Of a stretch of DNA of 24,062 nt, positions 3,925 to 13,874 are shown one piece after another. Source of the DNA: a virus; IMG/VR virus record IMGVR_UViG_3300037155_000091, positions 1 to 24,062 of that record. One strand, given 5' to 3'. A program made the position numbers and the translations under genes. The notes beneath the pieces are model-generated. The model worked only from the letters and a program-made list of their open reading frames with translations. It ran no database searches and had not been told where the DNA came from. Position 1 is the first letter of the stretch. Every line of letters starts with the position of its first letter.

Positions 3925-4079
3925 TCGTCGCAGATAGTCCGTTCTGGTTGCTCAACGTGAATGTCAAAGAGGGCGAATCGACCTCGATGGTCTGCCTCTT
4001 CGTCTATCACTGGCAATTCCTGATTCCGGACGTGATCCGCCAGACGTCTGCGATCGCACAAGCGGACGGTGCACCGTGA
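3921..4079 (+). CDS. hypothetical small protein, 52 aa
   Basis: ATG 3921 overlaps the upstream stop (ATGA), and its own stop overlaps the GTG of the next gene (GTGA). The centre is hydrophobic and beta-like (FWLLNVNV, then SMVCLFVYHWQFLIPDVI). Not recognised. The precise coupling on both sides is the main support for it being real; a longer reading of this frame begins at 3753 but overlaps the previous gene. Confidence 0.55.
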   Translation: MIVADSPFWLLNVNVKEGESTSMVCLFVYHWQFLIPDVIRQTSAIAQADGAP

Positions 4080-4714
4080 TTCAAATTCACTGTGACATTG
4101 ACGCGTTCAAATCGATCTATACCAACATCGAGAAAGAGCAACTCCCGTTCGCTGCCTCCCTCGCGGTCAACAACACCATTAAGGGCGCGCAGGTGTTCGC
4201 GATCCAAGGAATGCGCGAGAACTTCATCATTCGCCGCAACTGGGTAACCCAGGAAGCCGCGAAGATCACTCACTTCTCGAATAAGCACGAGGATCCTATC
4301 TACGCGCGGATCCAGGTGGGCGACAAAGCCGACTTCATGAACAAGTTTGAAGGAGGCGGCACGAAGACGTCGCGCAGCGGCCGCAATGTCGCGGTGCCGA
4401 TCATGGCTCGACCAAGTAGAGCTGGTCTCATCCCCACTTCGCTCCGTCCAAAGAATTTGAATCTGCACGCCGTCGGCGGAGCCATTCGCGGCGATCAGCG
4501 GACGTTCATCATGACGACCGGTGGCGGCCGGCAAGGAATCTTCCAGCGCACCGGACCGGGTAAGCGCGATTACATCCTTCTCTATTGGCTCACGCCCAGC
4601 GTGCCGATTCCTGCCTCTCTCCACTTCGAAGCGAGAGTCGCCGAGGCTGTCGGTCGATTGTGGGTGCAGGAGTTCGAGCGCGCGTTCGAGCAAGCCATGG
4701 CAACGGCACGATGA
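4076..4714 (+). CDS. putative virion protein, resembling minor tail/tail-completion (gpZ-like) proteins, 212 aa
   Basis: GTG 4076 overlaps the preceding stop (GTGA). After a beta start (IQIHCDIDAF), residues 20-45 read LPFAASLAVNNTIKGAQVF, an Ala-rich helix of the type seen near the N-terminus of lambda gpZ-like and other tail-completion proteins. Next is FIIRRNWV, then a beta-rich segment with VGDKADFMNKFEGGGT, a Gly-rich loop, and a C-terminal helix RLWVQEFERAFEQAMATA. That order of N-terminal helix, beta core with a Gly-rich loop and C-terminal helix fits gpZ-like proteins. The position is odd, since this family normally sits among connector or tail genes, whereas here it precedes the terminase. 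The assignment is from pattern impression; an unrelated structural protein is possible. Confidence 0.5.
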   Translation: MIQIHCDIDAFKSIYTNIEKEQLPFAASLAVNNTIKGAQVFAIQGMRENFIIRRNWVTQEAAKITHFSNKHEDPIYARIQVGDKADFMNKFEGGGTKTSRSGRNVAVPIMARPSRAGLIPTSLRPKNLNLHAVGGAIRGDQRTFIMTTGGGRQGIFQRTGPGKRDYILLYWLTPSVPIPASLHFEARVAEAVGRLWVQEFERAFEQAMATAR

Positions 4715-10566: not shown

Positions 10567-12675
10567 ATGGCGAAGGAAACAAAGAAGACTTTCCAGTCCA
10601 CCAAGGGCTACCGCGAGATGTCGTTCGCGATCGATCGCGAGAAGCTCGCGTCGCTCGCCACGAGATCGGCCGACGGTGGAGTCGCCGAGGAGCGGATCCC
10701 GATCGCGATCTCGAGCGAGACTCCGGTCCGCCGCTACAGCTGGTGGGACGGCGAGTTCTACGACGAGATCCTCGTCCACACGAAGGCCGCGGTCGATCTC
10801 TCCTACGCGAAAGATGGAATGCCCTTCCTCGATATCCACGACACGGGCCAACAGGAAGGAATCGTCGAGGATATCACGGTCGACGCCGACGGCGTGATGC
10901 GCGGCATGGTGCGCTTCAGTCAGAGGCAGACCGCGCAGGATTTGAAGCGCGACATGCTCGACGGGATCCGAAAGAAGATCTCGGTCGGCTACGGCATCCT
11001 CGAGAGCGAGACCATAGAAGTCGAGGACGACAACACAGTCGACCAAGTCCGCATTACCCGCTGGATGCCGATGGAGGCTTCGAGCGTACCGATCCCCGCC
11101 GATTACACGGTGGGCGTGGGCAGAAGCGCGGGGGACGCGCTGCCCGAGAACGTCGAGGCCGCGATCGCGGTCGTTCGACAGCACTTCCCCCACCTCACAA
11201 CCACGGCCCCGAAGGCCAAGGAGCGTACTCCGATGTCTGGAGCCAACACGGCCACTGTAGAAGGGGCCGAAAATAGACCATCCGCGATCACTGTTGCGGA
11301 CCGCGACGAGGCCGTGAAGGCCGAGCGCAAGCGCGGGAACGAGATTCGTGCTCTCGCCGAGAAGCACAAGATCCCGGCCGAGAAATCGGAGAAGTGGATC
11401 GATGAGGGCCGTTCCGTTGAAGCTGCGGCCGCTTCGATCCTGGGCGAGCTGCAGGAACGCGGCGACGCTGGCGCACCGACCGGCCGGCCCGCAGTCGAGC
11501 TCACCGACAAGGAACGGAAGCAGTACTCCTTCCAGAGAGCCATCCTGCTTCACTCGGATGACGTGCTCGGGAAGCGAGTCGATGGCTCGTTCGAGCGCGA
11601 GATCGCACAGGAGCTGGAAAAGAAAGTCCCCGAAGGCGTCAAGCGTAACGGCGGCTTCCTCGTTCCAACGTTCACGTCGACCGAATCTGCGCGCGAGATC
11701 ATGGCGCGTCAGAACGGCTGGCCGCTGGCCACTCGTGCCGGTTTGGATTCAGGCACAGCGACCAAGGGTCAAGAGCTCAAATTCACCGTGCCGGGTGATT
11801 TCCTCGAGCTGCTCCGGAACAAGATGGTGGCTTTCGCAGCTGGCGTGGAACTGTACGCCGGTCTCCAGGGTCCCGTCGCCTTCCCAGCACAGAACGGTGC
11901 AGCTACCGCGACCTGGGTCGGTGAAAACCCGGGAGCCGATGTCGCCGATTCCAACATGACTCTGACGCAGATCGCGCTCAATCCGAAGTCGATCCAGGCT
12001 TCGACGAGCTATTCGCGGCAGTTGCTTGCGCAGGCCGTAGTCGACGTCGACAGCATCGTCCGAAACGATCTGGCGCGCGTCAACGCAGTCGCACTCGATC
12101 TGGCAGTGATCAACGGCACCGGCGCTTCGAACCAGCCGACCGGAATTGCGAACACCGCCGGCATTGGCTCTGTCGCCTTGGGCGTCAACGGACTGACGCC
12201 CGTATACAACAACCTGGTCGATCTCGAGACCGCGGTCGCCATTGCGAACGCAGACCAGTGGCCCTGCAGCTACCTCGTGCACCCAACCTCCCGCGGCACG
12301 TTCAAGAAAGCGACCGTGTTGGCGAACACCGTTGGGATCCCTGTCTGGCAGAAGGGCGAGGCCAATATCCTCGGCACCGGCACCGTGCAGGGCATGAGCG
12401 CCCGCGTTCCGGGCGAGCTGAACGGCTATCCCGCGTTCTGCTCTGCGCAGGTCCCGAACAACCTCACCAAGGGAACGTCGGCAGGTATCTGCCTGGCGAT
12501 CCTCTTCGGCGCTTTCAGCCAGGCCGTCGTTGGTGACTGGGGAATGATGGAGTTGATCGTCGACCCCTATCGCCTGAAGAAGCAGGGAATGATCGAAGTG
12601 ACCTCGTTCGCGATGTACGGCATTGCGGTCAAGTACGCCGCTGCCTTCGCCGCGATCAAGGACGCTCTGGCCTAA
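10567..12675 (+). CDS. fused prohead protease, scaffold and major capsid protein, 702 aa
   Basis: ATG 10567 follows ACGAGG at 10555. Residues 15-190 are an HK97-type (S78) prohead protease: His91 in FLDIHD and Ser139 in KKISVGY are the likely catalytic pair. Residues 223-305 are a helical, charged scaffold-like delta domain (EAVKAERKRGNEIRALAEK). Residues 310-702 are an HK97-fold capsid subunit, with GGFLVP near the N-arm, SYSRQLLAQ and a C-terminal VDPYRLKKQGMIEVTSF. The protease would act on the delta domain after shell assembly and release the mature capsid near residue 305. Such protease-capsid fusions are known in several phages. An internal ribosome-binding site and in-frame ATG at 11233 (residue 223) fall at the protease/scaffold junction, so extra capsid without protease is likely. 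Next gene is a capsid paralog. Confidence 0.9.
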   Translation: MAKETKKTFQSTKGYREMSFAIDREKLASLATRSADGGVAEERIPIAISSETPVRRYSWWDGEFYDEILVHTKAAVDLSYAKDGMPFLDIHDTGQQEGIVEDITVDADGVMRGMVRFSQRQTAQDLKRDMLDGIRKKISVGYGILESETIEVEDDNTVDQVRITRWMPMEASSVPIPADYTVGVGRSAGDALPENVEAAIAVVRQHFPHLTTTAPKAKERTPMSGANTATVEGAENRPSAITVADRDEAVKAERKRGNEIRALAEKHKIPAEKSEKWIDEGRSVEAAAASILGELQERGDAGAPTGRPAVELTDKERKQYSFQRAILLHSDDVLGKRVDGSFEREIAQELEKKVPEGVKRNGGFLVPTFTSTESAREIMARQNGWPLATRAGLDSGTATKGQELKFTVPGDFLELLRNKMVAFAAGVELYAGLQGPVAFPAQNGAATATWVGENPGADVADSNMTLTQIALNPKSIQASTSYSRQLLAQAVVDVDSIVRNDLARVNAVALDLAVINGTGASNQPTGIANTAGIGSVALGVNGLTPVYNNLVDLETAVAIANADQWPCSYLVHPTSRGTFKKATVLANTVGIPVWQKGEANILGTGTVQGMSARVPGELNGYPAFCSAQVPNNLTKGTSAGICLAILFGAFSQAVVGDWGMMELIVDPYRLKKQGMIEVTSFAMYGIAVKYAAAFAAIKDALA
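11218..11235 (+). promoter_or_regulatory. internal ribosome-binding site and start inside the capsid fusion
   Basis: AAGGAG (11218-11223) is nine bases before an in-frame ATG (11233-11235), codon 223 of the fusion. Initiation here would make a 480-aa scaffold-capsid product lacking the protease, as the ratio of the parts requires. Comparable nested products occur in lambda (C/Nu3). Confidence 0.5.
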
Positions 12676-12687
12676 GCATCTGAGCGA

Positions 12688-12718
12688 GTGGTGCGGTCGC
12701 TTCACCGGGCCGCACCAC
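12688..12718 (+). terminator. 9-bp stem-loop between the two capsid genes
   Basis: GTGGTGCGG (12688-12696) pairs perfectly with CCGCACCAC (12710-12718), loop 13 bases, starting 13 bases after the TAA. No T run follows, so it is more likely an mRNA-stabilising or processing hairpin than a full terminator. Confidence 0.5.
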
Positions 12719-12782
12719 AAAGCTCTCCCTCGAAAGATCCAACAACAAAGATCCACCAACACTCACACAGACCTTCAATCCA

Positions 12783-13874
12783 ATGTCGGATATCAAACTG
12801 AACGCAAAAGAGGAGCGCGAGTATCGCCTTGGCGATGCGCTGCTCCAGCTCGCGGACGATCCCGAGTGGACCCGCGAGAAGTCGGGACTCGCGTTCGAAA
12901 TCTCCGATGAGATCGCGAAGCACATGCCGGCCGGCATCTCACGGCACGGCGGACTCCTGGTTCCCTACTCGATGCGCGCAGGGTTGGACACGGCGACCGC
13001 AACCAAGGGAGCCGAGCTCAAGTTCACAAAGTCGGAGACGTTTATCGATGCGCTCAGAAAGCGCGCGATCGTGCTTAAGGGCGGCGCCACCATTCTCGAA
13101 GGCCTGACCGCCGACTTGGCGATCGCGCGCGGCAACGGCACCGCGACCGCTTCCTGGACGACGCAGAATCCGCTCGCCGACGTCGGCGACACCAATCTCT
13201 TGCTCAACTCGGTCGCCTTGTCCCCCAAGGAGTTGATCGGCACGAGCTCGTTCTCCCGCCAGCTCTTAGTTCAGAGCCAAGTGTCGACCTCGGCCGATGA
13301 TCTCGTGCGGAACGATCTCGCACGCGTACACGCGTCGACGATCGACCTGGCGGCCTTGAACGGCTCGGGTGCAGCGGGCCAGCCGAGAGGCGTGCTCAAT
13401 CAAGCCGGCACGAATGCGATCGCGCTTGGCGCCAACGGGCAGATCGCGACCTGGCCCCAAACCACGTCGTTCGAACGCGTGGTCGCCGTAGCAGATGGCG
13501 ACGTCGTCGACCTCACTACGATGGCCTACATCACGACGCCCGAGATCCGCGATCGCTGGAGGATCACCGATCGCCAGGCGACGTCGGGCTGGTTCATCCT
13601 GGACGGCGATCAGTCGATCAATGACTACCCGGTGCTCGTCTCGAATCAGCTCCCGAAGAATCTCGTCAAAGGAACCTCGGGCGCCATCTGCCACCCGATC
13701 GTCTTCGGCGCCATGTCGGAGATCATCGTCGGCTTCTGGGCGGGATTCGAGATCGTGGTGGATCCCTTCCGCCTGAAAAAGCAGGGAATGATCGAAATGA
13801 CGTCGTATCAGCTGATCGACGTCGCAGTGCGGCACGCGGCTGCTTTCGCCGTTTCGCTCGACGCCTTGTCATAA
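12783..13874 (+). CDS. second major capsid-like protein (HK97 fold), 363 aa, paralog of the fused capsid
   Basis: Aligns by eye with residues 310-702 of the fusion from end to end. Its IKLNAKEEREYRLGDALL matches VELTDKERKQYSFQRAIL, GGLLVP matches GGFLVP, SFSRQLLVQ matches SYSRQLLAQ, LVRNDLARV matches IVRNDLARV, and VDPFRLKKQGMIEMTSY matches VDPYRLKKQGMIEVTSF. It lacks both protease and scaffold parts and begins just where the mature capsid should begin. It may form a specialised position (vertex pentamers, a portal-proximal ring) or a second shell component. Conserved blocks are intact, arguing against decay. The leader before ATG 12783 is A/C-rich with no Shine-Dalgarno. Confidence 0.85.
   Translation: MSDIKLNAKEEREYRLGDALLQLADDPEWTREKSGLAFEISDEIAKHMPAGISRHGGLLVPYSMRAGLDTATATKGAELKFTKSETFIDALRKRAIVLKGGATILEGLTADLAIARGNGTATASWTTQNPLADVGDTNLLLNSVALSPKELIGTSSFSRQLLVQSQVSTSADDLVRNDLARVHASTIDLAALNGSGAAGQPRGVLNQAGTNAIALGANGQIATWPQTTSFERVVAVADGDVVDLTTMAYITTPEIRDRWRITDRQATSGWFILDGDQSINDYPVLVSNQLPKNLVKGTSGAICHPIVFGAMSEIIVGFWAGFEIVVDPFRLKKQGMIEMTSYQLIDVAVRHAAAFAVSLDALS

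Follow-up and report, generated by a model that had tools for sequence, protein, structure and literature searches.

The question raised by this locus is why a small phage should carry, directly behind the gene for a capsid protein that is fused to its own protease and scaffold, a second capsid gene that has no protease. The window analysed here is the full IMG/VR virus record IMGVR_UViG_3300037155_000091 (24,062 bases), from a small soil phage, and its ORF, Pfam and PHROG matches are those of a lambda-like tailed phage fragment. The genes are arranged in the order TerS, TerL, head-tail joining protein, portal, c1, c2, two small genes, an FII-like attachment protein and tail genes, where c1 and c2 are the two capsid genes; these two, and the features described within and between them, are on the plus strand. 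A gpZ-like minor tail/neck gene (window 4076-4714) is found upstream of the terminase genes and not 3' of the head genes. The interval between portal and c1 is only ~150 bases in the window, and in L015, a close relative, it holds three ORFs with no Pfam match (L015:2397-4126). Relatives with a single capsid gene come mostly from Acidobacteriota assemblies.

The c1 ORF (10567-12675) is uninterrupted and encodes a polyprotein of 702 aa in which a prohead protease, a linker/scaffold and an HK97-fold major capsid protein are fused. Residues 424-698 match Pfam Phage_capsid (PF05065, E=4.8e-35), residues 39-700 match PHROG 617 (E=1.9e-99) and residues 40-327 match PHROG 4523, while the match to the NCBIfam fusion model NF045541 is partial and under the model cutoff. 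For the S78-like protease domain (about residues 42-180; 10690-11106), the Pfam match is sub-threshold (PF04586 at residues 66-179, 18.5 bits versus a cutoff of 21), and H91, S139 and E170, the protease residues, do not vary among 10 known fused capsid proteins. Given the PHROG 617 match and the conserved H, S and E, c1 is a fused protease-MCP of an already known kind.

The c2 ORF (12783-13874; 363 aa) starts 107 bases 3' of the c1 stop codon, is likewise uninterrupted, and matches Pfam Phage_capsid (PF05065) with E=2.7e-23. The first-pass annotation had described two intact HK97-fold capsid paralogues in one late operon, with c2 aligning to the capsid part of c1 from residue 310 to its end, and both statements are borne out: the alignment runs end to end from c1 residue 310 and c2 residue 4, with an E-value (1e-85) far beyond chance. 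Identity between the two capsid parts is 39% by BLASTP and 43% over aligned columns, as compared with at most 35% between either of them and ten phage proteins. AlphaFold2 models of c1 and c2 match phage capsids with Z of 17-19, placing both in the HK97 fold; the core of c2 corresponds to residues 85-357 (13035-13853; Pfam, and VIA Z 17-18.6 to phage capsids). The Enc1/Enc2 encapsulin shell proteins of Streptomyces lydicus are also matched structurally, at Z of about 15-16. A two-component encapsulin, which would be encoded by an operon for a cellular compartment and its cargo enzymes, was considered as an identity for the pair and rejected, as the genes around c1 and c2 are those of a phage head operon, among them terminase, portal and tail genes. 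P-domain contact sequences are also common to both proteins, and c2 is a full HK97-fold capsid paralogue of c1.

It had further been proposed that c2 is leaderless, and is born in mature form. The first description holds for the protease and linker, which are absent (a profile of the protease-scaffold part has no match in c2), but not for the helical segment predicted ahead of the mature N-terminus, which is kept, and the second description is not supported, for the same reason. In the case of R4C, a phage with the same fused gene, the solved chain (PDB 8gta) comprises polyprotein residues 362-629 and starts with GGVLVAQDYR, which aligns with c2 from residue 76 onward. Numbering in the structural matches implies an earlier start for the count used by the R4C authors, at about residue 336, and this position corresponds to H55/G56 of c2. 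By either start, about 55 to 75 residues of c2 precede the mature chain. Residues 1-55 of c2 (12783-12947) are homologous to the R4C segment before the mature chain, and to residues 310-361 of c1 (11494-11649), which alignment and AlphaFold2 helices define as a helical prosegment 5' of the R4C-inferred mature N-terminus. For c2, AlphaFold2 predicts helices at residues 8-13, 16-25 and 36-46 (block pLDDT 78-91) and, behind them, an arm with little definition. From residues 11-13 on, this model can be aligned with prohead I of HK97 and of D3. Such a prosegment is present in every c2 protein that was read, and in the window c2 keeps a sequence of ~55 residues homologous to the prosegment of c1. 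Since c2 has no protease, its cleavage, if it matures, must be in trans by the c1 protease, and it is such trans cleavage that we infer.

The pair is not confined to the window. A viral scan with c2 alone first gave nothing, a scan with c1 and c2 together gave L015, and scans with an alignment of c2 gave the others, relatives being taken from the best 80 loci per scan. In agreement with the suggestion that the pair be sought in related phages, it recurs in at least 12 IMG/VR contigs including the window (at least 11 besides it), always as c1 followed by c2. The contigs fall into group A (the window, L015, L016, L037 and L104) and group B (L119, L121, L122 and L125, which share one c2, together with L128, L124 and L164); the L037 sequence as retrieved starts within c1. 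The genes of L015 are both intact, and are 85.7% (c1) and 80.8% (c2) identical to those of the window. Broken copies of c2 in homologous phages, a case that the first-pass annotation had considered, were not encountered, as the reading frame is intact in 12/12 contigs, and profile search found no protease in the c2 of paired contigs. A chimeric assembly is ruled out, as separate metagenomes yielded many contigs with the pair, one of them at 85% identity.

In all 12 contigs c2 lies directly 3' of c1, albeit in L104 after a wider interval, several hundred bases long. This position behind the capsid gene in a head operon would suit a subunit acting at a special site or stage, be it next to the portal, in an initiation ring or in an alternative particle size, and capsid subunits adjacent to the portal do adopt other conformations in some phages (PMC11445458). 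However, no sequence feature points to portal contact, and contigs of paired phages, the two longest of which are 37.3 and 36.8 kb, do not exceed those of single-copy relatives in length, making such a role improbable.

Outside these contigs, a second capsid gene is absent, among the matches listed, from 91 distinct single-capsid relatives whose sequence continues for at least 1.3 kb downstream. A scan of 396 Acidobacteriota genomes for prophage pairs gave five matches, one in each genome, and no pair. The INPHARED records matching c1 (138), c2 (57) or group B c2 (59) do so in one place only, again with no pair. The earlier impression that no described phage combines a fused polyprotein with a leaderless copy is upheld within the 138 matching INPHARED records and the open-access papers searched, and the novelty of the combination extends as far as those collections and papers do.

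Some relatives have a single capsid gene of unusual form. Two Acidobacteriaceae assemblies (L152:3527-8249 and L153:3373-4413) encode a lone capsid protein without a fused protease. The element in L152 also has integrase-like, gpZ-like, small-terminase-like and tape-measure-like genes, with no large terminase or portal seen, and a remnant or a capsid-forming satellite are possible readings of it. In L116, L127, L140 and L143, the open frame of the single capsid gene begins fewer than 80 residues ahead of the capsid part, profile search detects no protease in it, and its product is possibly an unfused relative.

Phylogenetic analysis bears on how often the pair arose. In the maximum-likelihood tree, the group A c1 and c2 proteins form one clade each (100/99), whereas group B c1 and c2 together form one clade (100/99) elsewhere in the tree. 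Placing all pairs in a single clade is rejected (p=1e-6), and a single clade of all c2 is weakly rejected (p=0.04). Two separate origins, one for each group, fit these sequences best. For group A, a sister relationship of c1 and c2 is compatible with the topology test (p=0.46), although it is absent from the unconstrained tree; duplication within this lineage is possible, and acquisition of its c2 from another phage is not excluded. The c1 and c2 trees of group A share the same branching (L037; window plus L015; L016 plus L104), and the c1 and c2 distances are correlated (r=0.95, over ten non-independent pairs), as is expected of two genes that have been inherited together.

The second copy is also under purifying selection, with a dN/dS of about 0.2 (0.19 between window and L015, and 0.21-0.23 in group B), which together with the intact frames rules out a pseudogene. 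A redundant or dying duplicate with no role in the virion would be consistent with the faster evolution of c2, for which the deep identities in group A are 40-48% as against 55-66% for c1, and with the lack of a Shine-Dalgarno match before c2 of the window. Nevertheless, a gene that is intact in all lineages, selected where measured, of two origins and forming a deep clade is very unlikely to be dying, and we consider that c2 is very probably a selected, functional second capsid subunit.

Expression signals at the junction differ between the groups. Group B c2 genes have strong Shine-Dalgarno matches, whereas the window c2 has none, and the relative amounts of c1 and c2 are therefore not predictable. 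Just 3' of the c1 stop codon of the window is a strong RNA hairpin of 11 pairs (12688-12718; z -3.6), which is also significant in L015 (z -4.6), where it is in the same place with a compensatory U-A to C-G change, and in L037 (z -3.7), but not in L016 and L121. A terminator between c1 and c2 was rejected, as the hairpin has no T-run and is unlisted by a terminator scan.

If c2 is functional, the question becomes whether it is interchangeable with c1. One possibility is that c2 is a protease-free diluent: with a protease and scaffold on every c1, such a copy would reduce both the dose of protease and the crowding in the prohead, and c2 would otherwise be equivalent to c1. In keeping with this, c2 of both origins has no protease or linker and retains the prosegment. 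Yet about 90 relatives do without c2, almost all of them having the fused gene, and c2 is far more diverged than an interchangeable copy would need to be, such that we give this explanation little credence.

The divergence is not evenly distributed. At alignment columns that single-copy members conserve, c2 departs mainly in the E-loop and spine helix, with 61/215 deviations in group A versus 16/215 for c1, and 29/129 in group B versus 7/129 for c1, while deviations are few in the C-terminal P/A part (15/160 for c2 versus 8/160 for c1). This pattern would mean that the part joining the shell is kept, and that contacts within the capsomer may be altered. N418 and Q442 (c1 numbering), at least 90% conserved in single-copy proteins, are lost in c2 of both groups (P about 0.005-0.01), a shared loss that is suggestive only, as the sites are few and were picked out after looking.

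Group A c1 proteins depart from the family in a different respect. A-domain loops of the HK97 fold face the capsomer axis, and in group A c1 this loop is about 16 residues longer than usual: the region measures 41-43 aa, including the partial L037 protein, which is complete here, versus 24-31 in group A c2, 24-34 in 62 single-copy proteins and 23-25 in group B. In the window, the insertion comprises about residues 595-612 of c1 (12349-12402), and pLDDT is below 50 at model residues 292-302, corresponding to c1 601-611. By alignment and structural matches, the lengthened region covers the A-domain loop of R4C, at residues 202-218 in its authors' numbering (PMC10276861). A longer loop at the axis may crowd a pentamer. 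It has also to be considered that c1 and c2 are mixed in a random or quasi-random arrangement, in which c2 tunes stability or curvature. Irregularly tiled shells of two HK97-fold paralogues do exist, as in the S. lydicus encapsulin (PMC12407261), and c1 and c2 share their fold and P-domain contact sequences. However, the axis loop specific to group A c1 and the E-loop and spine residues lost in c2 suggest that the two do not interchange within a capsomer, leaving random mixing unlikely.

Our preferred explanation, a plausible one that stops short of probable, is that c2 is a functional subunit derived from a gene in which protease, scaffold and capsid are fused, by duplication of its capsid portion, giving a T4-like split. 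Here, c1 would provide hexamers as well as protease and scaffold, and c2 would be incorporated into the prohead by means of a short prosegment of its own and of P-domain contacts that are conserved. The c1 protease would then trim c1 itself and, in trans, c2. By analogy with gp23 and gp24 of T4, c1 may form hexamers and c2 fill the pentameric vertices, an assignment that we make tentatively. The division of labour suggested by the first-pass annotation is compatible with two HK97-fold paralogues kept under selection in relatives, with the proviso that birth of c2 in mature form is not supported. In group A, the longer axis loop may disfavour c1 pentamers and so make c1 dependent on c2, and it is of note that T4 mutations that bypass gp24 fall in the A-domain of gp23 (PMC9958956). 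The group B c1 loop is of normal length, and the loop argument thus covers one origin only; that ~90 single-capsid relatives manage with one capsid protein also counts against vertex placement. R4C is a fused-MCP siphophage of 36 kb with a T=7 capsid of 415 subunits (PMC10276861), and if its geometry holds here, 55 c2 and 360 c1 subunits would be present. All of the pairs are metagenomic sequences, from which we infer the expression, co-assembly, trans cleavage and vertex placement of c2.

Comparison with known systems places the pair in context. Fused protease/MCPs (PHROG 617, NF045541), such as those of R4C, S-LBS1, VP882 and Persinger, match c1 over its full length and share its protease residues, but the phages checked have a single capsid gene each. 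The only precedent for duplicated capsid genes in the open-access literature searched is the Caulobacter phage CcrColossus, a tailed phage with a duplicated and diverged capsid gene (gene 36 and capsid gene 81; PMC3556154). There, the phage is much larger, the copies are 21 kb apart, and the extra copy is reported only for Colossus among six relatives (PMC3556154). Family 2B encapsulins such as S. lydicus Enc1/Enc2 are also adjacent HK97-fold paralogues, but they are not viral, involve no protease, portal or DNA packaging, and the two proteins mix irregularly.

A further parallel is T4, which according to a 2025 paper is alone among viruses in giving two HK97-fold proteins distinct structural roles (PMC12407261), the vertex protein being probably the product of a duplication (PMC9958956). 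As in T4, two HK97-fold paralogues with N-terminal prosegments are present in one phage, the second one here being kept under selection; in T4 the prosegments are cut by the phage protease, whereas here they are known from sequence and models. T4 differs in its large prolate head, its separate protease and scaffold and in gp23 and gp24 being about 20% identical, while here the genes are in tandem, the proteins are 43% identical and the protease and scaffold reside in the chain of one of them. Both c1 and c2 match PHROG 617, and the pairs branch from within that family in a tree built without T4 proteins, which speaks against descent from the gp23/gp24 duplication. A bolder possibility, still conjectural, is that small fused-polyprotein tailed phages, on at least two independent occasions, have divided their capsid protein into a protease-bearing hexamer subunit and a trans-cut, protease-free vertex subunit, giving a T4-like shell outside the T4 lineage. 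Tandem paralogues at 43% identity, with two origins and close single-copy relatives, offer a means to ask what pentamers need beyond what hexamers do, and how a self-scaffolding, self-cleaving shell of one protein comes to depend on a second. A conserved pair that has apparently arisen at least twice suggests that small phages, and not T4 alone, can use two specialised versions of a capsid protein.
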